DNA from: Sphaerisporangium rufum
GTDB lineage: Bacteria; Actinomycetota; Actinomycetes; Streptosporangiales; Streptosporangiaceae
Direction: 5' to 3'
NCBI RefSeq assembly: GCF_016863395.1
Contig: NZ_BOOU01000032.1
Span: 62,001 to 126,000, forward strand
DNA: 64,000 nucleotides
Part shown: one piece after another, positions 14,954-29,462 of the stretch
Numbering within the stretch: the stretch's first letter is position 1
How the letters are laid out: each line of letters starts with the position of its first letter
Notes under the pieces: model-generated
Told to the model about the DNA's origin: nothing
The model's database searches: none
Seen by the model: the letters and a program-made list of their open reading frames with translations, nothing else
Program-made: the position numbers and the translations under genes

Positions 14954-15022
14954 ATGAAGCGATACGAGAAGCCGAAGGTCAAGAAGGTGGACACCGGAGC
15001 AGTGCTCCGGAGCAACTCCTGA
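14954..15022 (+). CDS. Putative RiPP precursor peptide, 22 residues
   Basis: Tiny gene with a purine-rich site (GAGAGGGGACGCG) just before ATG 14954. The peptide opens MKRYEKPKVKKV and ends DTGAVLRSNS. The YxxP followed by an alternating basic/hydrophobic stretch and a Thr-Gly matches the leader signature of lasso precursors (YxxPxL...T), which RRE proteins bind. If the leader ends after Thr14-Gly15, the core would be the heptapeptide AVLRSNS. That core has no Asp/Glu that could close a lasso ring, so an ordinary lasso peptide is unlikely. It is followed by a strong hairpin and then an AsnB homologue and RRE genes. A longer in-frame GTG form (from 14840) is less likely. Function as precursor is inference. 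Confidence 0.65.
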   Translation: MKRYEKPKVKKVDTGAVLRSNS

Positions 15023-15027
15023 CACCG

Positions 15028-15067
15028 GCGCGTGGGACCCGGCCGGCTCCGGCCCGGTCCCACGCGC
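15028..15067 (+). terminator. Strong hairpin after precursor peptide
   Basis: Arms 15028-15044 and 15051-15067 pair at 16 of 17 positions (GCGCGTGGGACC with GGTCCCACGCGC at the base) round a GGCTCC loop. It begins 5 nt after the peptide stop and lies 63 nt before the AsnB start. Such partial terminators often raise precursor mRNA over the enzyme mRNA in RiPP clusters. Confidence 0.65.
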
Positions 15068-15130
15068 ACGCGGGCATCCAGGGGGCCGCCCGGCCACGGG
15101 ACCGGGCGGCGGGACGACGGGGGACGGCTG

Positions 15131-17317
15131 ATGTGCGGACTTGCGGGCGTGGCCGTGATCGGTGGGCAGGACCTGCCGGCCGGGATCGACGCCGTGCTGG
15201 AGCGGATGTCGCGGGCGGTGGGGCACCGCGGCCCGGACGCCGAGCGCCACCACCGGGAGGGCCCGGTCGCGCTGGCCTTCCGGCGCCTGGCCCTGGTCGG
15301 CCCCGAGAGCGGCGACCAGCCGCTGTTCAGCGAGGACGGCACCTGCGCCCTGATCGCCAACGGCGAGGTGTACAACCATCACGAGCTGGCCGCCCGGGAG
15401 AGGATGCGGCTGCGGACCAGGTCCGACTGCGAGGTGCTCCCCAACCTGTACGCCCGGTACGACGTCCGCTTCCTGGACGACGTGCAGGGCATGTGCGCCG
15501 TCGTGCTGTGGGATCGCGCCCGCGACCGCCTGGTCCTCGCCCGCGACCGGTTCGGCATCAAGCCGCTGTACTACGCGCGCGCCGGCGACACCGTGGTGTT
15601 CGCCTCCGAGATCAAGGCGCTGTTCGAGCACCCCGGCTGCCCGCGGGAGCTGGACTGGGAGGTCGCGCTCGCCGACCAGTCGATGACCTCGGCCCCCCAG
15701 CTGACCGACGCCCCGGTCACCAGCTGGTTTCGCGGCGTCCATCTGGTCCCGGCGGGCACCGTCGTCTCGATCGACCTGCGGACCGGTGACAGCGACGAGC
15801 ACGTCTACTGGCGCCTGCCCTCGTTCACCGGCGGCTCGGACGCCTCCGAGGAGGAACTGGTCGGCGCCTACCGCGACCTGCTGGCCTCCTCGGTCCGGGC
15901 CTGCGCGTCGGCCGACACCGAACTCGGCCTGTTCCTGAGCGGCGGCGTCGACTCCGCCGCGGTGGCCGCGCTGGCCGCGGCCGGTGGCACCCCCCTGCAC
16001 ACCTTCTCGGTGCTCAGCGGCAGCACCCTGGCCAACGGGGACGCCGAGTCGGCCCATCGCGCGGCGGCCGCGCTCGGCCTGCCCAACCACCAGGTGCTCT
16101 TCGATTTCGCCACGATGCCGGGCGCGGCGGAGTGGAAGCGCCTGCTGTGGCTGCTGGAGACCCCGCTGTGCGGGCCGGAGCAGTATTTCAAGTACGAGCT
16201 GTACCGCCATGCCCGGCACGCCCGGCCCGGCCTGCGCGGGATGCTGCTCGGCGCGGGCAGCGACGAGTACAACGGCGGCTTCTCCACCATCTTCGGCACC
16301 GGCGAGGGCTGGGCCGGCTTCCAGGCCGGGATCGGGCAGCTCGCCCGGGCCGGCGCGCTGCGGGGCCGGCCGGCGCTCGCCTCCTGGCAGGACGGGCCGG
16401 ACGGCCCGCTGCTCGCCGACACGGCGCTCGGCCCACCGGCGGGCGCCGATCCCTACCCGGCCTACGTGGCGTGGCGGCACCGGCACATGCTCCAGTACAA
16501 CTGCTGGCACGAGGACCGCACCGCCGCCGGTAACGGCGTCGAGGCGCGGGTGCCGTTCCTCGACCACCGCATCGTCGAACTGCTGGCCGGCATCCCGCCG
16601 CACCGCCGCGCCGCGCTGCTGTGGGACAAGGCGATCCTGCGCCGGGCCGTGGCCGGGGTGGTGCCCGGGTGGGTCGCCGCCCGGCCGAAGGTGCCCTTCT
16701 ATTACGGGGACGGCGCCGGCTACACCCACCGCATGGTCGTCCGCATGCTGGCGCAGGACGGCGCCTCCCTGGTGGAGGAGGCGCTGCACTCCCCCGGCGG
16801 CCGGCGGTTCCTGCGCCCGGACACGATGCGCGCGGCGCTCGCCCGCCTGGGCGGACAGGGTGAACCCTGGGAGGTGGAACAGCTGTTCCGGCTGGTCAAC
16901 CTCGGCCTGCTGGACGCCATGGCCCGCGCGGTGCCGCCGGTGCCGCTGGACGCCCCGGCACGTGCCGTGTTGCCCGCGGTGCCGGTGGCCGACTGGGACC
17001 GCGACGCCCCGGCGCTGGCCGTCCGGCTGGAGGACCGCACTCCGCCCGCTCTGGACGGTGTCCTCGGCTTCCGCGACGACGTGCTGGTCGTCCACGAACC
17101 AGCTGAACCCCACCGGATGTACGTGAGCGTCGCCGGCAGCCTGGAGTACGTCGCCGAGGCCGCCGACGATCCCGCGTGGTTCGCGCTGCTGCGGGAGATC
17201 GACGGGCGGCGCACGCTCGGCGAGCTGCTCGCGGCGAGCGGCCAGAGCTACGACGCGGTGGCCGGCGTGCTGCGCGACACCATCGGCGCGGGCGTACTAC
17301 AGGAGGCCCGCCCGTGA
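15131..17317 (+). CDS. AsnB-like amidotransferase/cyclase fused to PqqD-like RRE
   Basis: Class II glutamine amidotransferase/ATP-dependent ligase of the asparagine synthetase B fold, 728 residues. Cys2 (MCGLAG) is the glutaminase nucleophile, and SGGVDS at 270-275 is the ATP pyrophosphatase loop. Residues about 635-728 form a separate PqqD-like domain (YVSVAGSLEYVAEA, then LREIDGRRTLGELLAA), likely an RRE that grips the leader peptide. Start ATG 15131 is fixed by the required Cys2. Homologues of this fold close the isopeptide ring in lasso peptides or amidate side chains. It overlaps the nucleotidyltransferase by GTGA. The fusion to an RRE is unusual. Confidence 0.85.
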   Translation: MCGLAGVAVIGGQDLPAGIDAVLERMSRAVGHRGPDAERHHREGPVALAFRRLALVGPESGDQPLFSEDGTCALIANGEVYNHHELAARERMRLRTRSDCEVLPNLYARYDVRFLDDVQGMCAVVLWDRARDRLVLARDRFGIKPLYYARAGDTVVFASEIKALFEHPGCPRELDWEVALADQSMTSAPQLTDAPVTSWFRGVHLVPAGTVVSIDLRTGDSDEHVYWRLPSFTGGSDASEEELVGAYRDLLASSVRACASADTELGLFLSGGVDSAAVAALAAAGGTPLHTFSVLSGSTLANGDAESAHRAAAALGLPNHQVLFDFATMPGAAEWKRLLWLLETPLCGPEQYFKYELYRHARHARPGLRGMLLGAGSDEYNGGFSTIFGTGEGWAGFQAGIGQLARAGALRGRPALASWQDGPDGPLLADTALGPPAGADPYPAYVAWRHRHMLQYNCWHEDRTAAGNGVEARVPFLDHRIVELLAGIPPHRRAALLWDKAILRRAVAGVVPGWVAARPKVPFYYGDGAGYTHRMVVRMLAQDGASLVEEALHSPGGRRFLRPDTMRAALARLGGQGEPWEVEQLFRLVNLGLLDAMARAVPPVPLDAPARAVLPAVPVADWDRDAPALAVRLEDRTPPALDGVLGFRDDVLVVHEPAEPHRMYVSVAGSLEYVAEAADDPAWFALLREIDGRRTLGELLAASGQSYDAVAGVLRDTIGAGVLQEARP

Positions 17318-18102
17318 CCGGAGTGCCGGCCGGCTGCCAGGAGGCCCGCACGGTCCTCGGCGAGCACCGCCTGCTGCCCGGCGACGCGCTCGCGGCGTTC
17401 GTCGTCGGATCCACCGCGCGCGGGTGGGCCAACCCGGGCAGCGACATCGACGTCGTGGTCGTCTCGGCCGCGCCCTTCGCCGACGATCGCGCGGTGACCA
17501 CCCGGGTGGCACTGGTGCCCGACACCCTCCCGGTCGTGACCTTCCGGCGCGGGGAGCGGCGGTGGGAGCTCAAGTACTGGACCGCGGCCCAGGTGGACCA
17601 GGTGATGAACAAGATCACCTGGTCGGCCTTCGAGGCGGACCGCCGGGTCGGCGACCGGCTCACGCTGACCGAGAACCTGTTCCTGGCCCGGCTGCGCTCG
17701 TGTGTGCCGGTGTTCGGCGCCGGCTGGGTGGAGCAGGCGCGCCGCCGGCTGGACGGCACCGCCTACCGGTCCTTCATGGTGATCGAGGCGCTGGCGGAGG
17801 CCGACGACGCGGTCGAGGACGCCCTGGGGCAGCTGGCCGCCGGGGACGTGGAGAGCGCGGTGCTGTCGGCGCAGGCGGCGTTCGGGTTCGCGGTGGAGGC
17901 CGTGCTGGCCGGGCACGGCGAGTTCGGGCCGCAACCCAAGTGGCGGGCCCGCCGGTTGCGGGCCGCCGCACCCGAGATCCTGCCCTTCGCCGAGTACTGG
18001 TCGATCCAGACGATGCGCGACTTCGACCCCGAGCGGCCGCAGGAGTGGGTACGCCGCGTCGCCGAGACCTGCCGGCGGGTGGCGATGGAGGTGGAGGTCT
18101 AG
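17314..18102 (+). CDS. Nucleotidyltransferase-domain protein
   Basis: Protein of 262 residues with an N-terminal pol-beta-type nucleotidyltransferase fold. The signature FVVGSTARGWANPGSDIDVVVV (about residues 29-50) has the GS motif and the DxD metal site. The C-terminal half is helical (FMVIEALAEADDAVEDAL), as in kanamycin-nucleotidyltransferase-like and MNT proteins. Start GTG 17314 overlaps the stop of the AsnB gene, with AGGAGG 7 nt upstream. In this setting it may transfer a nucleotide to the peptide or to a small partner; nucleotidyltransferases also occur in some lasso clusters. The substrate is not shown by the sequence. Confidence 0.8.
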   Translation: MTGVPAGCQEARTVLGEHRLLPGDALAAFVVGSTARGWANPGSDIDVVVVSAAPFADDRAVTTRVALVPDTLPVVTFRRGERRWELKYWTAAQVDQVMNKITWSAFEADRRVGDRLTLTENLFLARLRSCVPVFGAGWVEQARRRLDGTAYRSFMVIEALAEADDAVEDALGQLAAGDVESAVLSAQAAFGFAVEAVLAGHGEFGPQPKWRARRLRAAAPEILPFAEYWSIQTMRDFDPERPQEWVRRVAETCRRVAMEVEV

Positions 18103-18381
18103 GTGACGGCGCAGGTGGCGGCCCGGTCGGTGCCCCGCGTCCGGGACGACGTGCGCGTCCGGCGCTACCGCGGCCGGCTCCTGGTCGCCGGCCCGGTGGA
18201 CGCCTACGAGCTGACCGAGTCGGCGGAGTTCGTCTTCCGCCGGATCGACGGGCGCCGGACGGCCGGTGATATCGGCGCACTGCTGGCGCAGGAGTACGAC
18301 ATCGCGGCGGCCGTCGCCGGGCAGGACGTGCTGGACCTGCTCGGAGAACTGACCGTCCACCAGATCATCGAGCTGGACTGA
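18103..18381 (+). CDS. PqqD-like peptide-binding protein (RRE)
   Basis: Stand-alone PqqD-fold protein of 92 residues, a RiPP recognition element by family. The winged core is VRRYRGRLLVAGPVDAYELT, then FVFRRIDGRRTAGDIGALLA and a C-terminal helix (GQDVLDLLGEL). Its GTG directly abuts the nucleotidyltransferase stop (0 bp). It likely presents the 22-residue peptide to the modifying enzymes; a second RRE-like domain is fused to the AsnB protein, so two enzymes may have their own leader grips. Confidence 0.85.
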   Translation: MTAQVAARSVPRVRDDVRVRRYRGRLLVAGPVDAYELTESAEFVFRRIDGRRTAGDIGALLAQEYDIAAAVAGQDVLDLLGELTVHQIIELD

Positions 18382-18385
18382 CGCC

Positions 18386-19447
18386 GTGCGCCCCCCTCAC
18401 TCCGCCGGCGCCGCCGAGCCTCCCGACACGTCCGAGGTCGCCAAGGGCCCCGGGGACGCCTACCGGAGCGCCTTCCGGCATTGGGAGTCGCGGGCCGGCG
18501 TGCGGACCCGCCCGCGGCGGGTGCTGGACGAGCGCGGGCGCGACGCCCTGTTCTTCCCGCCGGAGTTCGTGCCCGCCACCGCGCATCCGCTGGTGGCCGC
18601 GCGCGGCCCCGGGACGGCCCACCGCCTGCTGGTGCATTCCCTGTACCAGTACCTGCACTTCACGACGGTGCTGGAACAGCTCGCCGTACTCCCGGTCACC
18701 GCCGCGCTGTCGTTGGGCCGGGCCGGTGTCGAGCTACCCGACGGGATGCGCGCGGACGCGTTCAAGATAACCACCGACGAGGCCTGGCACGCCCAGTTCT
18801 CCTACGAGTTCACCGGCGAGGTGGCCCGGGTTACCGGCATCGCCCCGTCCGCCGTGGTGGAGCCGCGGCTGGTGCGCGCCCTGGAGGAGACGCGGCTGGC
18901 GTTCGAACCGGCGCTGCACGGGCTGGTGGACCTGGTGTTCGCCGTGGTCAGCGAGACATTGGTCTCCGCCCTGCTGCACGATGTCCCGCGGGACGGCCGG
19001 CTGCCGGGGCCGGTACGCGCCCTGGTGGCCGACCACGCCGCCGACGAGGGCCGCCACCACGCCTACTTCCGAGAGTTCCTCCGGCGGCTGTGGCCGGCGC
19101 TGGGCCCGGCCGCCCGGACGGTCGGCCCCCGGGTGCCGGAACTGGTCCGAGTGTTCCTCGATCCGGACATGTCCGCGGTCGCGGCGGGCCTGCGCGCCTC
19201 GGGCTTCACCCCGCCGCAGATCACCGAGATCATCGCCGACTGCTACGGGCCCGCCGCGCCGTGCCGGGACGTCCGGCCCGCGGCCCGGGCCACCGTACGG
19301 GCATTCGCCGAGGTGGGCGCCCTGGACGACACCTGCACCCGCGACGCGTTCGCCGACGCCGGGCTGCTCGTCGAAGGGCCGGCGGCCGCCGGAGCCCGCA
19401 CCGACCTCAAGACGGCGACGTGCCCGGACCGGCCCCGGGAGGAATGA
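18386..19447 (+). CDS. AurF-like diiron oxygenase
   Basis: Non-haem diiron enzyme of the AurF (p-aminobenzoate N-oxygenase) type, 353 residues, helical bundle. Metal ligands are visible in order: LHFTTVLEQ (Glu), TDEAWHAQFSYEF (Glu and His), VSETLVSAL (Glu) and ADHAADEGRHHAYF (Glu, His, His). AurF-type enzymes oxidise aryl amines to nitro groups; related ones hydroxylate other substrates. GTG 18386 starts 4 nt after the PqqD stop. It probably oxygenates the peptide or a small building block of the cluster. Target inferred only. Confidence 0.82.
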   Translation: MRPPHSAGAAEPPDTSEVAKGPGDAYRSAFRHWESRAGVRTRPRRVLDERGRDALFFPPEFVPATAHPLVAARGPGTAHRLLVHSLYQYLHFTTVLEQLAVLPVTAALSLGRAGVELPDGMRADAFKITTDEAWHAQFSYEFTGEVARVTGIAPSAVVEPRLVRALEETRLAFEPALHGLVDLVFAVVSETLVSALLHDVPRDGRLPGPVRALVADHAADEGRHHAYFREFLRRLWPALGPAARTVGPRVPELVRVFLDPDMSAVAAGLRASGFTPPQITEIIADCYGPAAPCRDVRPAARATVRAFAEVGALDDTCTRDAFADAGLLVEGPAAAGARTDLKTATCPDRPREE

Positions 19448-19454
19448 GGCAGCA

Positions 19455-20105
19455 GTGGACGACTCAGCACTTCCGGCAACGATACGGCAGGCACTGACCA
19501 CCACGACGGCGGGCGCCTCCGGAGTGGCCCGGCTGGTCGTGGCGGGCCTGCTGGAGATCGGCGACGACGCCGCCCGGCGCGCGGCCACCGCGGACCTGCT
19601 GCTGCGGCGCCTCCCCGGCTACGCGCCGATCTGGCACATCGCCGCGGCGGCCCGCGGCGCCGGCTGGGCCGACGCGCTGCGGGCGATCCGGGCCGACCTG
19701 GACCGGTCGGTGGAGGACAGCGTGGCGACGGCGCTGGCCTGGCTGGCGGCCCGCCCGGGCCCGGTACTGTCCGCGCCGAGCAGCTCCGTCGTCGCCCGCG
19801 TGCTCGACCGGCTGCCCGCGCCCGCCGCGGACGGGCCGCCGGTCGCGCTGGCCGGGGCCGACGCCATCGGGCCGGACGCCGTGCTCAACATCGCCGGCAC
19901 CCGCGACCTGGCCCGGCGGCACCCGACCCTGGTGGTCACCACGTCGTTGAAGCTGGTCCCGGCGGCCGTGTTCGCCACCCTCGGCTCGCCGGCCTTCGAA
20001 CGGATCCCGCTCGCGGAGTTCGCCGGGGTCGTCCTGGACGGCGAGCTGCTGGACCCGGCCGACGCCGGCCGGCGGGCCGCCGGGCGCGGCCCGCTCCGGC
20101 GATGA
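19455..20105 (+). CDS. Compact eIF-2B/MtnA-family protein
   Basis: 216-residue member of the eIF-2B alpha/MtnA/ribose-bisphosphate isomerase superfamily. Landmarks in family order: TAGASGVARLVVAGL, LPGYAPIWHIAAAAR, VLSAPSSSVVARVL (the family's VLTHxxSxxV) and ALAGADAIGPDAVLNIAGT (with the conserved Asp of GAD), then FERIPLAEFAG. It is short for the family (about 300 or more residues): the segment between the VLS motif and GADAI is missing about 50 residues. The MtnA catalytic Cys has no match, so isomerase activity is doubtful. GTG 19455 has GAGG upstream, and the stop overlaps the next gene (ATGA). Confidence 0.75.
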   Translation: MDDSALPATIRQALTTTTAGASGVARLVVAGLLEIGDDAARRAATADLLLRRLPGYAPIWHIAAAARGAGWADALRAIRADLDRSVEDSVATALAWLAARPGPVLSAPSSSVVARVLDRLPAPAADGPPVALAGADAIGPDAVLNIAGTRDLARRHPTLVVTTSLKLVPAAVFATLGSPAFERIPLAEFAGVVLDGELLDPADAGRRAAGRGPLRR

Positions 20106-21208
20106 GCGCCACCTCGCCGCCCGGCGTGCCCGAACACCTGTCCGGCCTGCCGGCCAAGCGGGCGCTGTACGCGGCCGACACCTACTTCCGGGAGGTGCTG
20201 GAGGACCTGCGGGCCGCGTGCGCCGCGGACGGCGGATCGGTGCGCCGGTTCTGCCACGACCACACGCTGCTGCTGTTCAAGCCGGACGCGGCGGTGGCCC
20301 GCAAGATGAGACCCGGCCTGGAGCTGGTCGCCGCGCGCGGCTTCTCGGTGGTGGCGGCGACCCCGGTGACCATGAACCGGCACTCCATCCGCGCCCTGTG
20401 GCAGTACGGCTACCCGGCGGCGAGCCGGGACCGGCGGGACGCGGCCGACCTCTACATGACCGCCGGTGACTGCCTGCTCGTCCTGCTGGCCCGGCCCGGC
20501 CACGCGCGGCCGGCCAGCGTGCTGCTGAGCCAGGAGAAAGGGCCGGCCCGGCCCGAGGACTGCCGGCCCGGCCAGCTCCGCCACGAGCTGGGCGGCACCG
20601 GATACCAGCTGAACCTGCTGCACGCCCCGGACGAGCCGGCCGACCTGCTGCGCGAACTCGGCGTGCTGTGCGACGCGCCCGCCCGCGCCCTGCTGTACCG
20701 GCAGGCCCGCGCCCGGCAGGACGCGGCGGCACCGGCCCACCGGCTGGCGGAGCGGCTGGAGGCGGCCGCGCCGCGCGCCGAGCTGCGGGCCGGTCCGGTG
20801 CTGCGCGCGCTGCACGAGGCGGTGGCGGCGGCGCTCGCCCGCCGCCCGCGGGACGTCCCGGCCGGGCTGCCGCCGCTGCTGGCCGCCGTCCGGTCGGGCC
20901 GGTCCCGCGACTGGCGCGGCCTGCTGGGCCTACTCGACGCCGGCCGGATCGAGATCACCCGATGGCAGCGGATCGTGGTGGCCACGGCTCTGCTGGACCC
21001 CTTCGAACCCGGCCGCCAAAGCCTGCTGCCGGACGCCTCCGCTCGGCCACCGCAGGCCCCGGACGCGACGGGTGGCCCGGGCACGCTTCACGGCACAGAC
21101 AACATGGACCGCACGGGCGGCACCACGGCCACCGACGTTCCGGAGGGCATCGGCGACACCGGAACGGCGGCACGGCACCGGGCGGCACGGGACGGAGCCG
21201 GCCGATGA
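20102..21208 (+). CDS. NDP-kinase-like protein 1
   Basis: 368 residues, with a nucleoside-diphosphate-kinase-like domain at about 54-190. The phosphate-binding KPDA is intact (LLLFKPDAAV, K60), RPASVLLSQEKGPARPEDCR matches the family loop, and NLLHAPDEP places the phospho-accepting His at 174. The remaining ~175 residues are a helical, then Gly/Thr-rich, extension of unknown role. Typical NDP kinases have about 140 residues, so this is a modified version. It overlaps genes on both sides by 4 bp. Phosphotransfer to a nucleotide or peptide intermediate is inferred. Confidence 0.72.
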   Translation: MSATSPPGVPEHLSGLPAKRALYAADTYFREVLEDLRAACAADGGSVRRFCHDHTLLLFKPDAAVARKMRPGLELVAARGFSVVAATPVTMNRHSIRALWQYGYPAASRDRRDAADLYMTAGDCLLVLLARPGHARPASVLLSQEKGPARPEDCRPGQLRHELGGTGYQLNLLHAPDEPADLLRELGVLCDAPARALLYRQARARQDAAAPAHRLAERLEAAAPRAELRAGPVLRALHEAVAAALARRPRDVPAGLPPLLAAVRSGRSRDWRGLLGLLDAGRIEITRWQRIVVATALLDPFEPGRQSLLPDASARPPQAPDATGGPGTLHGTDNMDRTGGTTATDVPEGIGDTGTAARHRAARDGAGR

Positions 21209-22422
21209 CGGCCGCGGACATGGCGGTGCCGGCCGCCTACCACGGTGACGCGGACTTCGCGCGGGGCTGGGCGACGGCGGCCGAAGTGCTGGGCCACCGC
21301 CTGGACGGCGTGCTGCTCGAAGCCGCGATGCTGCTACTGTCTCCGCCCGCGGTCGCCACCGGCCGGGTGCCGGTCGCGCTGGACTGGCTGGCCGCCCACG
21401 GCTTCACCGTCCGGCACGCCGCCCGCGTCCACCTCACCCGGGACCAGGTGCGCCGGCTGTGGAAGTACCAGGCGGCCCGGCCGGACCCCGCCCGGGTGGA
21501 GATCTTCGGGACGCTCATGACGAGCGGACCGTGCGTGCTGCTGCTCGCCCGCGGGACACCGGACGGCCCGCTGCCGGCGGCCGCCCGGCTGCGGGCGCTG
21601 AAGGGGCCGTCCGACCCGCGCCGCTGCGCCCCGCACCACCTGCGGTCCTGCCTCGGCGCGGCCAACATGTTCAACAACCTCGTGCACACCTCCGACGGCC
21701 CGCCGGAGGTGGTCCGGGAGACCGCCATAGTGCTCGGTGACACCGGGCCGGCCGTAATGTGGCGCGACGCGGTCGCCGCCGCCCCGGTGGACCCGGTCCG
21801 GGCGCGGACGGTGGCCGCGGCCGCATCCGGCGTGCCCGGCGGGATCTCCCTGGCCCACGCGGGGGTGGCGCTGCGCCGGCGGTTGCTGCGCCGGCTGCGC
21901 GCCGTACTGCCCGAGGCGGACCCCACCGGCGCCGCCGACCGGCTGCTCGCCACGGAGGAGGCGTGGGCTCGCGGGTACGACCCGGCACGGCCGGTGGCGG
22001 CGCTGGCGGCGTTCCGTGGCCGGTTCACGCCGGTCGCGCCGGCGCTGTCACCGCCGGGGGCGCGGCCCGGGCCGGCCGCCCGTCACCTGATCGGCCTGTT
22101 CGTCCAGGTGGAGGCGGCGCTGTTCGGCACCGGTCTCGACTTCGAGCGGCTGACCGAGACCGCCCGGCTCGCGCGCGTCACGCTGGGATCCCGTGACCGG
22201 CTGGTACTGGCCACCGAGTGGCTGACACTGCGCACCCTGCGGCAGGTCGCGGCCGCCCCGCCGGAAGCGGGCTCAGGCGCCGACAGGACGGCAGCGGTGG
22301 CGGCCGTCGTCGGTGCGGGTGGTCAGCCGGGCCCTCTCGAGGTGCTCCAGCAGGGGCACCGCGACGCGGCGGCTGGTGTCGAGGGCCTGGCGGGCCTGGC
22401 TGACGGTGAACGGCTGAGGTAG
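21205..22422 (+). CDS. NDP-kinase-like protein 2
   Basis: 405 residues, paralogue of the preceding protein. The domain is degenerate at the KPDA site (LLLSPPAVATG) yet keeps the catalytic His region (NNLVHTSDGP, H161). A C-terminal helical part of about 240 residues follows. One active and one degenerate copy could form a hetero-oligomer. Its last ~50 codons run antisense over the 3' end of selB; that part has low-complexity composition. Last gene of the cluster. Confidence 0.65.
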   Translation: MTAADMAVPAAYHGDADFARGWATAAEVLGHRLDGVLLEAAMLLLSPPAVATGRVPVALDWLAAHGFTVRHAARVHLTRDQVRRLWKYQAARPDPARVEIFGTLMTSGPCVLLLARGTPDGPLPAAARLRALKGPSDPRRCAPHHLRSCLGAANMFNNLVHTSDGPPEVVRETAIVLGDTGPAVMWRDAVAAAPVDPVRARTVAAAASGVPGGISLAHAGVALRRRLLRRLRAVLPEADPTGAADRLLATEEAWARGYDPARPVAALAAFRGRFTPVAPALSPPGARPGPAARHLIGLFVQVEAALFGTGLDFERLTETARLARVTLGSRDRLVLATEWLTLRTLRQVAAAPPEAGSGADRTAAVAAVVGAGGQPGPLEVLQQGHRDAAAGVEGLAGLADGERLR

Positions 22423-24087
22423 TCCTGCCAGCAGGGCGGCGGCCCGGCGGTCGGCGCCGGGGAGCAGCACGACGCCCTCGGCGATCCGCAGCAGCGCGCC
22501 GGCCCGCACCGCGGCGGCGATCTCCTTGCGGCCCAGGCCGAGCGCGGCCAGCCGGTCGGCCTCCGGGGCGCGGAACGGCGCGCCGGCCAGCTCCGCGCGC
22601 AGTCGGTCGACGGCCGCCGCCACCGGCGCGGGCAGCCCGGACGCGCCGCCGGTGGTGATCCGCCCGGCTGCCAGGGTGAGCGGCGGCCGGATCAGTGCCG
22701 CCACCAGGCGCCGGTCGGGCAGGCCCAGCGCCCGCCGGGCCGCCTCGACCGGCATGCCGGGCTCCATCGGGTCGTGCGCCGCGTACTCGCCGACCGCCGC
22801 GGCCAGCCGGCCGGGCAGCGCCTGCCACAGCTCCGGGTCGGCGTGCCAGTCGCCGGCGACCGGCGGGCCGGGCGGCTTCACCCCCATCGCGGCCAGTTCG
22901 GCGGCCGGCAGGAACCGGTGGGTGCGCAGCAGGGCCGCCGCGCCCGGCGCGGCGGCGAGCTCGGCGGCGCGGGCGCGGGCCGCGCCGCGGCGGCGCAGCG
23001 CGGGCGGCCGGACGTCCAGCACGGCGGCGCCCGCCACCACGCTCGGCAGCTCGCGGGGGCGGCCCGGATCGCGCAGCACCAGCACGTCGCCCACGTGCAA
23101 GGGCAGCGGCCTGGCCAGCCGCAGCCGCGCGGTGCCCGCGCCGAGCGGGCGCACCCGGCAGGTCACCGCCGCCGACCCGATGTGCGCGGTGACCTCGGCG
23201 GGCAGCGCGAAGGCGTCCCCGCCGGCGGCCGGCCCGGGGCGGCCGCCGGGCGGTGCGGTCCCGCCGTCCCCGCGGGGACCGGGAGCGGTGAGCCGGACGT
23301 CGACCAGGTCGGTGCCCGTCCAGGCGCCCGGGGTGACCAGGGCGGTGCCCCGGGTGAAGGCGCCGCGCAGGTTGACGGCGACCCGGGCGACCCCGGTCAC
23401 CGACTCCGCCTGCTCCTTGAGGGTCTGCAGGCCGCGCACCCGGACGGGCGTGCCGTCCAGCGACAGCTCGTCCCCGGCCCGGATCCGGCCGGCGGGCAGG
23501 GTTCCGGTGACGACGGTGCCGCTCCCCCGCACGGTGAAGACCCGGTCCACCCACAGCCGCGCCGGGGCGGCCGGATCGGCGCCGGGCAGCCGGGCGGCCA
23601 GCCGGTCCAGCTCGGCGGTGAGCTCCGCCAGCCCGGTCCCGGTGCGGCCGCTCACCGCGACGGCCGGGACGCCGGGCAGGCCGCCGGCGGCCAGCCGGGC
23701 CAGGGCCTGCCGGGTGGCCGGTCCGGGGTCGGCGAGGTCGGACCGGGTGACGGCGAGCAGGACGTGCCGCACGCCGAGGGCCTCCAGGGCCAGCAGGTGC
23801 TCCTCCGACTGCGGCATCCACCCCTCGTCGGCCGCGACGACCAGCAGCGCGGCCGGGACCGGGCCGGCACCGGCCAGCATGGTGGACAGGAACCGTTCGT
23901 GGCCGGGCACGTCGACCAGCGCCAGCCGGGCACCGGACGGCAGGGTGGTCCAGGCGTAGCCGAGTTCGATGGTCAGCCCACGGCGGCGCTCCTCGGCCAG
24001 CCGGTCCGGCTCCATGCCGGTCAGCGCCCGTACCAGGGTGGACTTGCCGTGGTCCACATGTCCCGCCGTGGCGATCACGTGCATCAC
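22273..24087 (-). CDS. selB: Selenocysteine-specific elongation factor SelB
   Basis: Specialised EF-Tu-like GTPase of 604 residues that carries Sec-tRNA to the ribosome at UGA codons with a SECIS. The G-domain begins MMHVIATAGHVDHGKSTLVRAL (P-loop) with DVPGHERFLSTML as the G3 motif and TRSD as G4. Domains II-III follow, and the last ~200 residues contain winged helices that bind the SECIS. Start GTG 24087 or ATG 24084; it overlaps the selA stop. Its client is the formate dehydrogenase at 29455-32646. Confidence 0.95.
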   Translation of the reverse strand: MMHVIATAGHVDHGKSTLVRALTGMEPDRLAEERRRGLTIELGYAWTTLPSGARLALVDVPGHERFLSTMLAGAGPVPAALLVVAADEGWMPQSEEHLLALEALGVRHVLLAVTRSDLADPGPATRQALARLAAGGLPGVPAVAVSGRTGTGLAELTAELDRLAARLPGADPAAPARLWVDRVFTVRGSGTVVTGTLPAGRIRAGDELSLDGTPVRVRGLQTLKEQAESVTGVARVAVNLRGAFTRGTALVTPGAWTGTDLVDVRLTAPGPRGDGGTAPPGGRPGPAAGGDAFALPAEVTAHIGSAAVTCRVRPLGAGTARLRLARPLPLHVGDVLVLRDPGRPRELPSVVAGAAVLDVRPPALRRRGAARARAAELAAAPGAAALLRTHRFLPAAELAAMGVKPPGPPVAGDWHADPELWQALPGRLAAAVGEYAAHDPMEPGMPVEAARRALGLPDRRLVAALIRPPLTLAAGRITTGGASGLPAPVAAAVDRLRAELAGAPFRAPEADRLAALGLGRKEIAAAVRAGALLRIAEGVVLLPGADRRAAALLAGLPQPFTVSQARQALDTSRRVAVPLLEHLERARLTTRTDDGRHRCRPVGA

Positions 24088-25634
24088 CCGGCCGTCCCTC
24101 CGTACTCCTGCGGGTGGGCGCCCGGCATCCCACCGCCCCGGCCGTTCGCGCCACTGGCGCTGTCGGCGCCGTCCGCGCCTTCCGGGCCTTCCGGGCCTTC
24201 CGGGCCAACCGAACCGTCAGGGCCGGCCAGGCCGCCGGAGCCGTCAGGGCCGGCCGCGCGGTTCGCCTTCCGCCGGGCACCGAGACCGGCCGAACCGCCC
24301 GGATCGCCCGGGCCGCCGGTGCCGGCCGGGGCGGCGTGACCGCGCCCGGCGGCCAGGGCGGTGACGGCGGCGGCGATCTCGGCGTCCTCCTCCGGGAGGA
24401 CGGCGCGCAGGTCGAGCAGCAGGCCATCGTCCTCGACCCGGCCGACGACCGCCGGCTCGGCGGTGCGCAGCGGCCCGGCCAGCGCGGCCGGCAGCCGGAC
24501 CGCGCCGCTCGGCAGGGTGACCCCCGGCGCGCCGCCGCCGCCGACCGCGGCGCGCGTGGCCACGGCGGTGGCCGGCACGCCCGCCGCGCGCAGCGTCGCG
24601 GCCAGCGCGCCGGCCCGCTTGGCCAGCACCTGCGGGTCGGCGTGCAGCGCGGCGGTGACCGGCGGGGCCGGGTCGCGCAGGGTGGCCTCCAGCGCGGCGA
24701 GCGTGAGCTTGCCGACCCGCAGCGCGCGGGCCAGCGGGTGCCGGCGCAGGCGCTCCACCAGGTCGCGCCGGCCCAGCAGCAGCCCGGCCTGCGGGCCGCC
24801 GAGCAGCTTGTCGCCACTGGCGGTGACCAGGGCGGCCCCGGACCGCAGCGCGGTGGCGGCGTCCGGCTCGTCCGGTAGCAGCGGCTCGCGCTCCAGCAGC
24901 CCGGAGCCGATGTCGGCGACCACCGGCACGCCGAGGGTGGCCAGCTCGCGCACCTCGACGGTGCCGGTGAAGCCCTCCACCCGGAAGTTCGACGGGTGCA
25001 CCTTGAGCACGAAACCGGTGTCCGGGCCGATGGCGGCGGCGTAGTCGGCCAGGTGGGTGCGGTTGGTGGTGCCGACCTCGCGCAGCCGGGCGCCGGTGGA
25101 CACCAGCAGGTCCGGGATGCGGAAACCGTCGCCGATCTCGACCAGCTCGCCGCGGCTGACCACGATCTCCCGGCCGGCGGCCAGCGCGGTGGCGGCCAGC
25201 ACCAGCGCGGCGGCGTTGTTGTTCACGATGTGCACGGCCTCGGCGCCGGGCACCGCGGCGGCCAGCGCGGCCAGGGCGCCACGGCCGCGCCGGCCCCGAG
25301 TGCCGGTGCGCAGGTCGAACTCCACGTCGGTGGCCCCGGCCGCGGCGGCGACCGCGCGGGCCGCGGACGGTGACAGCGGCGCCCGGCCGAGGTTGGTGTG
25401 CAGCAGCACGCCGGTCGCGTTGATCACCCGGCGCGGCGGGCCGAGCTCGGCCAGGTGCGCCAGCGCCGCGCCGGCCACCTCCTCCGGCGCGATCGTCCCG
25501 GCCCGGGCCCGCTGCTGCGCCGCGACGACGGCCGCCTTGACCAGCGGCCTGCCCAGCCGCCCGGCGGCGGCGACCAGCCGGCGGTCGGCCAGCACGGCGT
25601 CGGTGCGCGGCACCCGCCGGCGAGGATCGTCCAT
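24084..25634 (-). CDS. selA: L-seryl-tRNA(Sec) selenium transferase SelA
   Basis: PLP enzyme that turns Ser-tRNA(Sec) into Sec-tRNA(Sec) with selenophosphate. The chain starts MDDPRRRVPRTDAVLADRRL; INATGVLLHTNLGRAPLS and the PLP-lysine site ASGDKLLGGPQAG are diagnostic. Length 516 residues; the last ~60 form a Gly-rich collagen-like tail (AGPDGSGGLAGPDGS, then PEGPEGPEG) that is not part of the usual enzyme. ATG 25634 is chosen as the domain starts there. Operon with selB (overlap). Confidence 0.94.
   Translation of the reverse strand: MDDPRRRVPRTDAVLADRRLVAAAGRLGRPLVKAAVVAAQQRARAGTIAPEEVAGAALAHLAELGPPRRVINATGVLLHTNLGRAPLSPSAARAVAAAAGATDVEFDLRTGTRGRRGRGALAALAAAVPGAEAVHIVNNNAAALVLAATALAAGREIVVSRGELVEIGDGFRIPDLLVSTGARLREVGTTNRTHLADYAAAIGPDTGFVLKVHPSNFRVEGFTGTVEVRELATLGVPVVADIGSGLLEREPLLPDEPDAATALRSGAALVTASGDKLLGGPQAGLLLGRRDLVERLRRHPLARALRVGKLTLAALEATLRDPAPPVTAALHADPQVLAKRAGALAATLRAAGVPATAVATRAAVGGGGAPGVTLPSGAVRLPAALAGPLRTAEPAVVGRVEDDGLLLDLRAVLPEEDAEIAAAVTALAAGRGHAAPAGTGGPGDPGGSAGLGARRKANRAAGPDGSGGLAGPDGSVGPEGPEGPEGADGADSASGANGRGGGMPGAHPQEYGGTAG
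24178..24207. repeat. 9-bp tandem repeat in the selA 3' end
   Basis: CCTTCCGGG-type 9-mers in three successive copies encode the PEGPEGPEG part of the SelA tail on the minus strand. Likely slippage-generated. Confidence 0.6.
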
Positions 25635-25811
25635 GCCAGCCGAGCATAGGCCCGGCCGGCCTCCGGGCCCGAACGCCGCCCCCGCGTTCGCGGCGACCGG
25701 CCCGGGACGGCCGGCGGCGACGGGGCTCCCGGCGGGGACGGCCGTCCGGGCGGCGGCGGACCGCGCCGGCACCGGGCCGTCCGGACCTGGACGGGTGGCG
25801 GATGAGGCGGA

Positions 25812-25907
25812 TGGCGGAGGCGGACGGGAATCGAACCCGCCAGGCCGAGATCCTCGGCCTCGTCGGTTTTGAAGACCGCGGGGGCCACCAGGCACCCGGA
25901 CGCCTCC
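25812..25907 (-). tRNA. selC: tRNA-Sec (anticodon TCA)
   Basis: Minus-strand tRNA of about 96 nt including an encoded CCA. Acceptor arms GGAGGCG (5', from 25907) and CGCCTCC pair. The anticodon loop reads CTTCAAA with TCA. The very long variable arm AGGCCGAG-GAT-CTCGGCCT is typical of tRNA-Sec, and the T-loop is GGGTTCGATTCCC. It lies between selA and selD and completes the Sec machinery. Confidence 0.95.
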
Positions 25908-26002
25908 GCGTCGAACCCTACCGGCGCCCGCCGCCATCCCCGAACCGGGGCGCCTGACCCGGCCCGGCACCATCCGGACCGCCACCACCGAGCCAGGCGC
26001 CA

Positions 26003-26086
26003 CGGACCAGACAGCCCCGGACGAGACAGCATCGGACCAGACAGCCCCGGACCAGGCAGCGTCGGACCAGGCAGCGTCGGACCACG
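26003..26086. repeat. 15-bp minisatellite upstream of selD and tRNA-Sec
   Basis: Five to six degenerate copies of a ~15-bp unit, CGGACCAGRCAGCNY, run between the tRNA-Sec 5' end and the selD start. They fill much of the 285-bp gap. No gene is supported here; the long minus-strand reading frame through it is repeat-driven. Confidence 0.7.
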
Positions 26087-26192
26087 CGCCACCGGGCAGG
26101 CGGCGGGCCGGCCAGGGCACGGGTACACCGGCTCCGGGGCGTCCGGCGGGCGGCTAGGGTGCGGGCGACGGCACGTGTGAGGAGACCGCTGG

Positions 26193-27173
26193 ATGACCAT
26201 ACGGCTGACGCAGTACGCGCACGGGGGCGGCTGCGCCTGCAAGATCCCGCCGGGCGAGCTGGAGGCGATCGTGGCGGGCCTGGTGCGGCCGCCGGGCGAC
26301 GACCTGCTGATCGGGCTGGACGACGGCGACGACGCGGCGGCGATCCGGCTGGACGGGGACCGCGCGGTGGTGGCCACCGCCGACTTCTTCACCCCGGTGG
26401 TGGACGACGCCTACACCTGGGGCCGGATCGCCGCGACCAACGCCCTGTCGGACGTGTACGCGGTGGGCGGCGAGCCGCTGCTGGCGGTCAACCTGCTGGG
26501 CTGGCCGCGAGACGTCCTGCCGATGGAGCTGGTGACCGAGGTGCTGCGCGGCGGGCTGGACGCCGCCGACGCGGCGGGCTGCCACGTGGCGGGCGGGCAC
26601 AGCGTGGACGACCCCGAGCCGAAGTACGGGATGGCCGTCACCGGCCTGGCCGACCCCGGCCGGCTGCTGCGGATCGGCGCCGGCCGGGCCGGGGTGCCGC
26701 TGTCGCTGAGCAAGCCGCTCGGCGTCGGGGTGCTGAACACCCGGCACAAGGCGACCGGCGAGGTGTCCGTCGAGGCGGTGGCGGTGATGACCACCCTGAA
26801 CCGGGACGCCTCGCGGGCCGCCCTGGCCGCCGGCGCGGTGTGCGCGACCGATGTGACCGGCTTCGGGCTGCTCGGCCACCTGTACAAGCTGGCCCGGGCG
26901 AGCGGGGTGACGGCCGTGCTGGACACCGCGGCGGTCGGCTACGTCGAGGGCGCCCGGGAGGCGGTCCGGGCCGGCCACGTCAGCGGCGGCACCCGGCGCA
27001 ACCTGGCCTGGGTGGCGCCGCACCTGGAGCCCGGCGGCGTCCCGGAGGAGACCCTGCTGCTGCTCGCGGACGCGCAGACCTCCGGCGGGCTGCTGGTGGC
27101 CGGCGAGATCCCCGGCGCCCCGGTGATCGGCGAGCTGGTGCCCGCCGCCGGCCCGGCCATCACGCTGCGCTGA
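26193..27173 (+). CDS. selD: Selenide, water dikinase SelD
   Basis: Makes selenophosphate from selenide and ATP for SelA. 326 residues. The N-terminal catalytic loop HGGGCACKI carries Cys (TGC), not Sec, and the Lys. Downstream LIGLDDGDDAAAI and GGHSVDDPEPKYGMAVTG are family signatures, as is CATDVTGFGLLGHL. ATG 26193 has GAGGAG 11 nt upstream. Convergent with the formate dehydrogenase operon, 183 bp apart. Confidence 0.95.
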   Translation: MTIRLTQYAHGGGCACKIPPGELEAIVAGLVRPPGDDLLIGLDDGDDAAAIRLDGDRAVVATADFFTPVVDDAYTWGRIAATNALSDVYAVGGEPLLAVNLLGWPRDVLPMELVTEVLRGGLDAADAAGCHVAGGHSVDDPEPKYGMAVTGLADPGRLLRIGAGRAGVPLSLSKPLGVGVLNTRHKATGEVSVEAVAVMTTLNRDASRAALAAGAVCATDVTGFGLLGHLYKLARASGVTAVLDTAAVGYVEGAREAVRAGHVSGGTRRNLAWVAPHLEPGGVPEETLLLLADAQTSGGLLVAGEIPGAPVIGELVPAAGPAITLR

Positions 27174-27356
27174 CCCGCCCGGCCGTCCGTCGCCGGGTCG
27201 GCGTCGTGCGGTGTCCGCTTCCGGCCGGCCCGGTACCGGACCCGGCCAGAGGCGCCGACGGGCCGGTTCGCGCGCCCGCGATGTTCCGGCGAGCCCGGCG
27301 ATCCGCCTGACCACCGCACGTGAGGGCGGGCGCCCCGGCCGCCTCCGGAGCGGGTG

Positions 27357-28541
27357 TCAACCGGATCCGCCGGCCGGCCGGTCACCGTCTCCGGCAGTCC
27401 GGCCGCCGTCTCCGGCAGTCCGGCCGCCGTCTCCGGGGGTGCGGGCGGCCTCGGCGGCCCGGCGGGCGGCCAGGCGCTCGCGCTGCGGGCCGACGATGTA
27501 GGCGGGATCGGCGGCCGAGGCCCGGCCGGCCCGCAGCACGCCGAAGCGGGTGCACACGGCGCCGGCGGTCAGCGCGGCGGCGGCCGCCACGCCGGCCAGC
27601 TCCCGCAGGCCCGGCCGGGACGCCGTCCGGGCGCCCGCGTAGCCGGACCGTGCCGCCGCCACCGCGGCTCGCGCGGCCCGGACCGGCCCGCCGGCCGAAG
27701 CGCGGCCGGCGGATCCCGGCCACCCGCCGGCCGGGCCCCGGCCGGCGGGCACGATCCCTTGGCCGCGCCGGCTCCCGCCGCGCGGTCCGGCGGGCAGGCC
27801 GGCCAGCGCGGCGAGCACGCCGCCGGCGGCGGTCAGCAGCCGGCCGGCGCGCATCATGCCGTCCTGCCGGTAGGGGTCGGCCAGCGTACCGAGGCGGCGT
27901 TCCATCACGGTGCTCGCCACGGTCTCCACCGCCGCGCCCAGCGCGGCCATCCGGCGGCCGGGCACCGCGGTCTCCGGCCGGGCCAGGCCGCTCACGATGC
28001 CGACCGCCCCCGCGCCGGCCAGCGCGCTGCCGGCGAACAGGAAGGGCAGCTCGCGGCGGGCCTCGTGCCAGGCGGGGACGGCGGTGTCGGCGACCAGCAC
28101 GGCGGTGTAGGTGGACATCACCGGCCCGGTCAGCCCGGAGGCGAGCGCGGCGAGCCGGCCGGCGGCGGGCAGCAGGCCGGTGACCGCCGAGCCGGCGGCG
28201 AGCGCGGTCGCCCCGCCGTGCGCGGCCAGCACCCAGGAGCCGACGCTCATCGGCGAGGTCGGCTTGAAGACGCGCAGCATGTTGAGGAATCGCTCGGGCC
28301 GGCCCAGCTCGGCGACCAGGAAGCCGGCCCCCGCGGCCGCGGCGGCCGCCGCCGCCAGCCGGGCGACCGTGGCCGGCGGCCCGCCGGGCCCGGCCCGCAG
28401 CTCCTCCACCGCGGCGGCCAGCCCGCACGCGCCGGACAGCCCGCCCAGGTAGAGATAGAGCGGCATGTGCGGCTCGTGCCAGATCGGCGCCTTGATGATC
28501 GGCTGGCCGTAGTAGGAGCCGAACTCGGCCTTCGGCACCAT
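27357..28541 (-). CDS. NrfD/PsrC-like membrane subunit of formate dehydrogenase
   Basis: Integral membrane quinone-side subunit, 394 residues, about 8-9 hydrophobic segments. The N-terminus SYYGQPIIKAPIWHEPHMPLYLYLGGLSGA is typical of the NrfD family. It would anchor the FdhAB pair and pass electrons to menaquinone. It replaces the cytochrome b subunit of FdnGHI enzymes. Start ATG 28541 is chosen; in-frame GTGs at 28559 and 28565 are possible. The C-terminus has tandem repeats (DGGRTAGDGGRTAGDG). Confidence 0.85.
   Translation of the reverse strand: MVPKAEFGSYYGQPIIKAPIWHEPHMPLYLYLGGLSGACGLAAAVEELRAGPGGPPATVARLAAAAAAAAGAGFLVAELGRPERFLNMLRVFKPTSPMSVGSWVLAAHGGATALAAGSAVTGLLPAAGRLAALASGLTGPVMSTYTAVLVADTAVPAWHEARRELPFLFAGSALAGAGAVGIVSGLARPETAVPGRRMAALGAAVETVASTVMERRLGTLADPYRQDGMMRAGRLLTAAGGVLAALAGLPAGPRGGSRRGQGIVPAGRGPAGGWPGSAGRASAGGPVRAARAAVAAARSGYAGARTASRPGLRELAGVAAAAALTAGAVCTRFGVLRAGRASAADPAYIVGPQRERLAARRAAEAARTPGDGGRTAGDGGRTAGDGDRPAGGSG
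27385..27436. repeat. 21-bp tandem repeat in the NrfD gene 3' end
   Basis: Two exact 21-bp units (27385-27405, 27406-27426; CCGTCTCCGGCAGTCCGGCCG in plus-strand reading is one unit over 20 nt, so only its start CCGTCTCCGG is given as motif) and a 10-bp partial third. They encode the Gly/Asp-rich C-terminal repeat of the membrane subunit. Confidence 0.7.
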
Positions 28542-28712
28542 CGCCCGTTCACGCGCCACCGCCACCACTCCCCCCGGCCCGGCCGGCCGGTCTCGCCGTA
28601 CCGGCCCCGCTCGCCTCGGGCACCGTACCCACCGTGCTCGCCGTTCGCCGGCCGTCCCCGCCACCCCGCCGGGCGCTCCCGGTCACCGGCCCGGCCGCGC
28701 CGCCGCGCGCGC

Positions 28713-29462
28713 TCACCGGCGGCGGCCGGCGGTGGCCAGCACGGTGACACCCACCATGGACAGCGCGGCCGCGGCGGCCCAGCGCCACATGGCCGGCAGG
28801 TCCCTGGTGGTGACGACCGGGTCGGGCGGCAGGCCGTAGGTCTCCGGTTCGGCCATGAGCAGGAAGAACGCGCCGTCGCCGCCCACCCCGTCCGCCGGAT
28901 CCTCCCCGTACAGGCGGGCCTCGGTGCGGCCGGCGGCGTGCAGGCCGGCGACCCGGGCCGCGGCGCGCTCGCGCAGCTCGTCGAGCGGCCCGAACTGGAT
29001 GGAATCGGTGGGACACGCCTTGGCGCAGGCGGGCTCCAGGCCGCCGCGCAGCCGGTCGTAGCACATCGTGCACTTCCAGGCCCGGCCGTCGCCCTCCCGC
29101 CGGTCGATCACCCCGTAGGGGCAGGCCGGGACGCAGTAGCCGCAGCCGTTGCACACGTCGGACTGCACGACGACGGTGTCGAACTCGGTGCGGAACAGCG
29201 CGCCGGTGGGACAGACGTCCAGGCAGGCGGCGTCGGTGCAGTGCTTGCACACGTCCGACGACATCAGCCAGCCGTCGCCGTTCTCGATGAACGCCACGTG
29301 CCGCCAGGTGCTGGCGCCGAGCGCGCCGGTGTTGTCGTAGGAGGTGGCCCGGAAGACGAACCCGTCGTCGGGCACGTCGTTCCACTCCTTGCAGGCGACC
29401 TCGCAGGCCTTGCACCCGATGCAGACGCTGGTGTCGGTGAAGAAGCCCATGCGCTCACTCAC
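28713..29462 (-). CDS. fdhB: Formate dehydrogenase iron-sulfur subunit
   Basis: Electron-transfer subunit with four 4Fe-4S clusters, 249 residues. Cys sets are CIGCKACEVACKEW, CKHCTDAACLDVCPTGA, CNGCGYCVPACPYG and CTMCYDRLRGGLEPACAKACPT. The C-terminal helix WRWAAAAALSMVGVTVLA can anchor it in the membrane. GTG 29462 overlaps the fdhA stop; ATG 29450 is an alternative. It links the selenoenzyme to the NrfD subunit encoded downstream. Confidence 0.93.
   Translation of the reverse strand: MSERMGFFTDTSVCIGCKACEVACKEWNDVPDDGFVFRATSYDNTGALGASTWRHVAFIENGDGWLMSSDVCKHCTDAACLDVCPTGALFRTEFDTVVVQSDVCNGCGYCVPACPYGVIDRREGDGRAWKCTMCYDRLRGGLEPACAKACPTDSIQFGPLDELRERAAARVAGLHAAGRTEARLYGEDPADGVGGDGAFFLLMAEPETYGLPPDPVVTTRDLPAMWRWAAAAALSMVGVTVLATAGRRR

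Follow-up and report, generated by a model that had tools for sequence, protein, structure and literature searches.

The 64,000-nucleotide stretch of the genome of the soil bacterium Sphaerisporangium rufum analysed here (contig NZ_BOOU01000032.1, positions 62,001 to 126,000 of the forward strand; hereafter, the window) harbors, between its positions 14,954 and 22,422, an operon of eight genes belonging to a real, recurring family of clusters of the RiPP (ribosomally synthesized and post-translationally modified peptide) type. The family core consists of an AsnB-type amidotransferase with a likely C-terminal RiPP recognition element (RRE), an AurF-like diiron oxygenase, a nucleotidyltransferase (NT), a free RRE, and a precursor peptide of 22 residues. 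We favour, with moderate confidence, the reading that these clusters produce a peptide with a C-terminal hydroxamate, or a hydrazide in two relatives, with a later NT step. We infer the reactions, their order, the removal of the leader and the final structure of the product from the gene content, co-occurrence, precursor conservation, protein folds and active-site conservation described below.

In the proposed pathway, the fixed-length precursor would be modified at its C-terminal carboxylate to give the RiPP. The AurF-like diiron enzyme would N-hydroxylate an amide, most likely that of glutamine, forming gamma-glutamyl hydroxamate, and the RRE-fused AsnB would move the hydroxylamine onto the C-terminus of the peptide held by its RRE, which would be the acceptor carboxylate; in two genomes (G821 and G886) a glutamate-borne hydrazine would take the place of hydroxylamine. 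The free RRE would then present the peptide to the NT, which has the ANT fold, yielding a nucleotidylated peptide (less likely, the NT protects the producer), and proteins resembling nucleoside-diphosphate kinase (NDK) and eIF2B would form an accessory nucleotide/sugar-phosphate module.

A recurring gene family around a 22-residue peptide

All eight open reading frames (ORFs) of the window cluster lie on the + strand in one tight operon, with six of the seven junctions being 4-bp overlaps or gaps of at most 7 bp, and the sole wider one (108 bp, between the peptide gene and asnB) containing a hairpin. The close packing and gene assignments of the earlier note were thus borne out, Pfam agreeing for AsnB (Asn_synthase, 2e-54, plus GATase_7), NT (NTP_transf_2, 1e-8), the free RRE (PqqD, 7e-12), the oxygenase (AurF, 3.5e-23) and both NDK-like proteins (NDK, 9e-7 for NDK1 and 1e-12 for NDK2). 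That note had also named a lack of co-occurrence in other genomes as grounds for refutation; the search was run, and the genes co-occur in 31 AsnB-RRE loci, studied as stretches of 13 to 36 kb each.

Seven of these loci come from outside the Streptomyces survey and 24 from 23 of 392 Streptomyces genomes. A search with NDK2 across 297 genomes of the order gave the G208 and G231 clusters; an eIF2B profile run on the genome collection gave six loci, namely the G231 cluster again and five others without AsnB; and an AsnB search of plasmids gave three Streptomyces plasmids. The NT profile matched just 3 of 394 genomes of a class-wide sample, including the window genome and G302 (one of the three matches being weak), so outside Streptomyces the family is patchy. 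Among the 392 Streptomyces genomes, the same profile matched 27, and a separate AsnB-RRE profile matched 23 (24 loci), all of them among the 27 (Fisher 2e-33, a value not corrected for kinship and obtained with an AsnB profile built largely from NT-found loci, of which G821 and G886 were not part). The NT is not a perfect marker, since four of the 27 NT-positive genomes lack an AsnB-RRE match at E ≤ 1e-120 (G1000, and the weak NT matches G672, G690 and G800). Most Streptomyces loci were found through NT or AsnB, and the presence of these two genes therefore reflects selection in part; the AurF-like gene, the free RRE and the precursor played no part in it.

NT and a free RRE are present in 31 of 31 loci (the latter according to an RRE-family model; the free RRE of G652 was missed by tblastn and recovered by profile), and the AurF-like gene in 29. 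A related MFS gene occurs in 17 of the 31, so that the lack of an exporter pointed out in the earlier note holds for the window locus and is not a family trait. The clusters are located on plasmids and across scattered genomes. No description of this gene set or family was found in the openly licensed PubMed Central (PMC) literature searched, in agreement with the earlier view that it matches no known RiPP class.

The precursor gene of the window (14954..15022, + strand) encodes the 22-residue peptide MKRYEKPKVKKVDTGAVLRSNS, with a leader-like YxKP...V region and three to four variable residues at its end. None of the 31 loci lacks a 22-codon ORF with the motif M..Y.KP, and all 33 distinct peptides obtained are 22 residues long, with Y4, K6 and P7 invariant, K10 in 31, Val or Ile at position 12 in 32, and Val or Ile at position 17 in 31. 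Leader-like conservation extends to residue 18, and only the last three to four residues vary freely, the final one being Val (10), Ala (10), Thr (5), Arg (5), Lys (2) or Ser (1). The window has the motif once, and 600,420 bases of sequence taken from loci other than these clusters have none; this cleaner set replaced an earlier control with 11 matches in 97 loci, all of which overlapped copies of the same clusters. A looser scan (19-30 residues plus a ribosome-binding site) returned the same peptides and a few dissimilar chance ORFs. The gene is present in three copies in G974 and two in G798. Some 80-175 bp separate asnB from the closest upstream copy in 27 of 31 loci, the closest copy being more distant in G208, G231, G302 and G798 (values for G821 and G886 were derived from printed coordinates). 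Between the precursor stop codon and asnB, the window has a strong hairpin (15026..15070, + strand; an 80-nt fold of -52 kcal/mol, z -2.7 against 60 mononucleotide shuffles), and a strong hairpin follows the stop codon of most precursors, with none after the first two G974 copies or in G798.

An invariant length combined with variable C-terminal residues fits action at the C-terminus, and suggests a measuring of distance by the enzymes between the leader and that end. The leader-like conservation up to residue 18 would also suit a peptide that, like those of PEARL pathways, serves as a throwaway carrier, its C-terminus being built up and a small modified unit cut off, so that most of the 22-mer would not be part of the product. 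Several clusters do contain enzymes of small-molecule type (kinases, an aminotransferase, a PdxJ-like protein, transketolase halves). No PEARL/LanB-type gene is found among the eight window genes (the relatives were not searched for PEARL/LanB), however, and the variation of the tail suggests that the last residues matter to the product. We regard the carrier as a real possibility that falls short of an even chance; it is compatible with a hydroxamate step.

Proposed hydroxylamine and hydrazine chemistry at the peptide C-terminus

The putative hydroxamate pathway depends on two enzymes. The AurF-family diiron oxygenase of the window (18386..19447, + strand) has as its nearest characterised relative found SaAmOx, a TsnB7-type amide N-oxygenase (36% identity). 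The profile of the cluster AurF-like family scores SaAmOx at 279 bits and a Nostoc diiron enzyme, whose gene adjoins a glutamine amidotransferase gene, at 249 bits; full AurF scores 75 bits (an AurF part, 73) and 5hyg, which we take to be CmlI, 56 bits. Seven of seven iron ligands are kept in 30/30 AurF-like sequences. In the phylogenetic tree, SaAmOx and the Nostoc enzyme lie near the cluster enzymes and far from AurF, on long branches that make this placement unsure.

The second enzyme, the AsnB-type amidotransferase (15131..17317, + strand), is the proposed C-terminal hydroxylamine transferase. Its RRE-like domain (approximately 17033-17314) was not detected by Pfam; comparing its profile with that of the free RRE family (hhalign, 94% probability, E 1.5e-7) makes the fusion recognized in the earlier note likely. 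The glutaminase residues Cys2, R52, N77, E79 and D99 and the SGGxDS ATP loop are kept in 29/29 AsnB sequences, and the family profile matches 7ylz, a 'hydroxyamidotransferase', across positions 1-527.

A three-gene module, SaAmOx-AS/SaAmOx/SaHAT, yielded benzohydroxamic acid in E. coli, and the accessions of these three proteins at locus L135 are those given for it in the text excerpted from PMC13418202. For trichostatin, the excerpts of PMC11160463 and PMC5719088 describe N-hydroxylation of glutamine to glutamyl hydroxamate by the AurF homologue TsnB7 and the shift of hydroxylamine onto a carboxylate by an AsnB homologue. The combination of AsnB-RRE and an AurF-like enzyme thus points to hydroxamate chemistry, a possibility that the earlier note had not proposed.

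The two loci lacking the AurF-like gene, G821 and G886, are of particular relevance. Whole-genome searches of both found no AurF beyond a 24-bit fragment match on another contig of G821, which answers the doubt raised by the position of the G821 locus near a contig end. Within the stretches examined, a glutamine synthetase (GS)-like gene occurs in these two loci exclusively, and the two have GNAT genes of the same type (61% identical). In G821, genes for a GS-like protein, an amidase, an unknown protein and a GNAT protein, annotated as are FzmN, FzmO, FzmP and FzmQ, are contiguous (in transcript order: GNAT, unknown, amidase, GS). In G886, NT-RRE is directly preceded by genes for a GS-like and a saccharopine-dehydrogenase-like protein, a Lys/Orn N-oxygenase, a cupin and a MetRS-like protein, a group that is presumably a hydrazine-forming set. 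The precursors of both loci end in Val-Arg, and fosfazinomycin A contains a Val-Arg hydrazide. FzmN-Q load hydrazine onto glutamate for fosfazinomycin and kinamycin, and the AsnB homologue FzmA frees hydrazine from glutamylhydrazine, with a proposed transfer to arginine (PMC6133997, in excerpt). Where the source of hydroxylamine is missing, it looks as though a source of hydrazine is present, and this loss of AurF alongside hydrazine-on-glutamate-like genes fits a changed nucleophile donor.

Several observations weigh against this interpretation. The glutamate of the SGEGSDE motif of E. coli AsnB (which we take to be E348) is replaced by A, G, Q or S in 29/29 family AsnB proteins and retained in SaHAT; an N of the family corresponds to S in SaHAT, a position that is Y in 28/29 is F in the window AsnB, and identity to SaHAT is just 33% over the best piece. 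The TsnB9 subfamily is large (127/246 Streptomyces genomes match at E ≤ 1e-150), and 12/12 TsnB9-like loci examined (4.6 kb each) have no AurF-like gene, so that likeness of AsnB to TsnB9 is, by itself, a weak argument and was set aside as proof of hydroxamate chemistry. No homologue of the TsnB6/SaAmOx-AS helper was found in the loci (best tblastn E 1.9), and because of this the cluster is described as working like the TsnB module and is not classed as a member of it. No leader protease gene was recognized by Pfam among the eight window genes. The hydrazine swap comes from just two loci, and their likeness to the Fzm genes is one of annotation and neighbourhood, not of sequence; a relative of the Lys/Orn oxygenase (29%) is also present in the AurF-bearing locus L106, a cupin piece is also found in L108/L139, and the nearby amidase of G886 scores as an ordinary amidase equivalog and may be unrelated to the swap. 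Finally, the oxidation of glutamine by SaAmOx is itself termed a hypothesis in the excerpted text of PMC13418202.

The nucleotidyltransferase and the putative accessory nucleotide genes

The NT of the window (17314..18102, + strand) is followed immediately by the free PqqD-type RRE (18103..18381, + strand). Searched with its profile, PDB sequences were uninformative (best E 0.056). The structural model (predicted local distance difference test, pLDDT, 94.8) has the ANT(4')/kanamycin nucleotidyltransferase fold, matching ANT(4'') (6nmk) over its whole length (Z 13.3, root-mean-square deviation [rmsd] 4.4, 221 aligned residues) and kanamycin nucleotidyltransferase (1kny) with Z 12.8. The GS-x10-DxD motif is kept in the window protein, and its GS...D-x-D pattern in at least 90% of 37 rows. 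Such a fold would also suit an enzyme of self-protection, like the aminoglycoside nucleotidyltransferases against their drugs, with a product that is released nucleotide-free; we consider this rather unlikely, as NT and the free RRE are found together in all 31 loci, usually as neighbours, and for the same reason the NT probably acts on the leader-bearing peptide.

The two NDK-like proteins, NDK1 (20102..21208, + strand) and NDK2 (21205..22422, + strand), both retain the motif His (NxxH in NDK1); the KPD Lys is kept in NDK1 and lost in NDK2. In the family, the His is present in 19/19 sequences and the Lys in 15/19, all four losses being of the NDK2 type. An NDK-like protein is encoded in 12/31 loci, a thymidylate-kinase-like protein in 12/31, and both in 0/31 (were the two independent, they would fail to overlap with a probability of about 4e-4, kinship ignored). 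With NT in 31/31 loci and one or the other kinase-like protein in 24/31, a nucleotide- or phosphate-bearing product, as suggested in the earlier note, is plausible. The final ~65 residues of NDK2 are antisense to selB and match only antisense frames in the searched genomes. NDK2 and selB overlap tail to tail, and selenocysteine genes lie directly 3' of the cluster (window positions 22273-31977), comprising selB, tRNA-Sec (25812-25907), and ORFs for selA, selD and formate dehydrogenase that were assigned by eye.

The remaining gene (19455..20105, + strand, GTG start) encodes a compact protein without a Pfam match, whose profile gave chance matches only among PDB sequences. Its AlphaFold2 model (pLDDT 90.9) confirmed the eIF2B/ribose-1,5-bisphosphate (R15P) isomerase superfamily fold that the earlier note had perceived, aligning by VIA-align 2 with Pyrococcus eIF-2B 1vb5 (1vb5_B; Z 20.6, rmsd 2.8, 204 aligned residues) and with ribose-1,5-bisphosphate isomerase (Z 19.6). 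R15P and 5-methylthioribose-1-phosphate (MTR1P) isomerases use a catalytic cysteine, and a C135S mutant is named in the title of structure 5yfs; since cysteine is absent from the window protein and from 8/8 eIF2B-like sequences, a canonical isomerase activity is unlikely. The eIF2B-NDK genes are a separable module, shared by the cluster and also found without RiPP genes: the eIF2B-NDK1 pair occurs with no RiPP genes nearby in Plantactinospora (L045, L047, L048) and in Sphaerisporangium corydalis (L024/L050), the latter having eIF2B-like and NDK1-like genes beside NDK2, a distant NT and ABC transporter genes, and Micromonospora L046 contains an eIF2B-like gene without an NDK1 match.

Other loci differ in the genes that surround this core. 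The richest cluster, L059 (G302; 5.4-18.8 kb), adds PdxJ-like, RmlD-like, inositol monophosphatase, PfkB kinase, zinc alcohol dehydrogenase and class III aminotransferase genes, and in L022/L049 (G208, G231) the interval from the NDK genes to the precursor contains transketolase-like halves (identified by eye) and a Gfo/Idh oxidoreductase, a set that we take to recall the rif kanosamine branch. Additional NT genes occur in the same genome at L108, L111 and L116 (G921, G823), L116 having three in 4 kb and no AsnB match. L103 (G1000) combines a strong NT with genes of NDK-like and inositol-monophosphatase-like type; its AsnB (28%) is SaHAT-like in its motifs, and no AsnB-RRE, AurF or 22-mer was found at this locus. 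On the Streptomyces scopuliridis plasmid L053 (8.5-11.4 kb), a lanM gene adjoins the AsnB-RRE cluster and probably belongs to a separate lanthipeptide pathway. L054 (Cronobacter dublinensis plasmid pA14-2) and L055 (a Rahnella aquatilis plasmid), at 2.5-8.9 kb, encode a distant AsnB (32-33%), PqqD, a methyltransferase, an MFS protein, a JmjC/cupin-like protein, an unknown protein and a divergent GNAT, with a 22-residue candidate precursor, MKKTYAKPR(V/L)VQIRRSVS(V/A)GGH, immediately upstream of pqqD; these enterobacterial plasmid clusters are perhaps a sister class.

Comparison with known pathways and significance

The TsnB6-7-9 module of trichostatin and benzohydroxamic acid likewise combines an AurF-type amide oxygenase and an AsnB-type transferase in one cluster, but its acceptor is a free small carboxylic acid, the region shown contains no RRE, precursor peptide or NT, and its helper TsnB6 has no homologue in the AsnB-RRE loci. 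The fosfazinomycin/kinamycin cassette (FzmN-R, FzmA), whose fifth gene is for an adenylosuccinate lyase, shares with G821 the side-by-side GS-like, amidase, unknown and acetyltransferase genes, a likeness by annotation and neighbourhood; the fosfazinomycin acceptor is free arginine, and the comparison bears on G821 and G886, not on the window. Matlystatin and actinonin are non-ribosomal. An AurF homologue and an AsnB-like enzyme (MatA/MatC and ActI/ActJ, respectively) have been proposed as their hydroxamate makers (PMC5719088, in excerpt).

A comparable case is that of the nitrilotides and nitrilobacillins, in which an asparagine synthetase (AS)-like enzyme, PesC, modifies a ribosomal peptide at its C-terminus (excerpts of PMC13060819). 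Their product is a nitrile, formed with MNIO and alphaKG-HExxH enzymes, and the term 'RRE' is absent from the main text of that source; no MNIO match was obtained among the eight window proteins (Pfam). By analogy, AsnB-RRE might install only an NH3-derived nitrogen, giving an amide as do TsrC/ScdTA or a nitrile as does PesC, with the AurF-like enzyme oxidising another site of the peptide. AS-like enzymes perform both reactions in RiPPs (PMC13060819, in excerpt), and with 315.8 bits the window AsnB exceeds the 267.1-bit cut-off of the asparagine synthase equivalog. However, the AurF-like enzyme groups with amide oxygenases and is missing from precisely the two genomes with hydrazine-on-glutamate-like genes, as fits an altered nucleophile donor, and simple amidation or nitrile formation is in our view unlikely.

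The hydroxamate reading can be extended, at a low probability close to that of amidation and slightly below it. Conceivably, the NT links a nucleotide to the hydroxamate O or the hydrazide N to yield peptidyl-C(O)-NH-O(or NH)-nucleoside monophosphate (NMP), a stable aminoacyl-adenylate mimic of ribosomal origin and Trojan-horse design like microcin C; the mutually exclusive NDK-like and thymidylate-kinase-like proteins would then fill one slot, preparing or further phosphorylating an unusual nucleotide that would differ between clusters through their varying sugar genes. Microcin C7 is a very short ribosomal peptide with a nucleotide at its C-terminus, made with a ThiF-type adenylating enzyme. 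The cluster product would likewise be a very short peptide that may carry a C-terminal nucleotide, and no ThiF-like adenylating enzyme was found among the eight window proteins. If true, the peptidyl-NMP structure would represent a microcin C-like design reached through entirely different enzymes.

A lasso or lasso-like macrolactam pathway minus the B2 protease was rejected as highly improbable. An AsnB-like enzyme and a PqqD-type RRE are held in common with lasso clusters, and YxKP resembles the YxxP motif that lasso leaders carry, but the window AsnB is far under the cut-off of the lasso cyclase model (NF033535-type; 171 versus 525 bits), its glutaminase residues are kept, the last eight residues contain no Asp or Glu in 30/33 precursors, and there is no transglutaminase-like B2 protease among the eight window proteins (relatives were not systematically searched), all in keeping with the distinction from lasso clusters made at the outset. 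PMC13381572, which deals with how leaders are discriminated among RiPPs of Bacillota, was likewise set aside; in the part consulted it concerns another class. That the eight genes form a common operon of primary metabolism in which the small ORF is there by chance, as their generic family names would allow, has a negligible probability given a precursor conserved in 31/31 loci and clusters found on plasmids and in scattered genomes.

For a short ribosomal peptide with a probable C-terminal reactive-nitrogen cap, and perhaps a nucleotide tag, no published description was found in the openly licensed PMC literature; the family is not rare in Streptomyces (23/392 genomes). Hydroxamic acids are strong metal chelators and constitute the warheads of actinonin, matlystatin and trichostatin. 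If the proposed pathway is true, the clusters would define a new RiPP class, programmable metalloenzyme inhibitors made by a leader-guided enzyme pair that writes a C-terminal hydroxamate or hydrazide, and would offer a tool for tailoring peptides as well as a direct way to test how AsnB-type enzymes select among ammonia, hydroxylamine and hydrazine.

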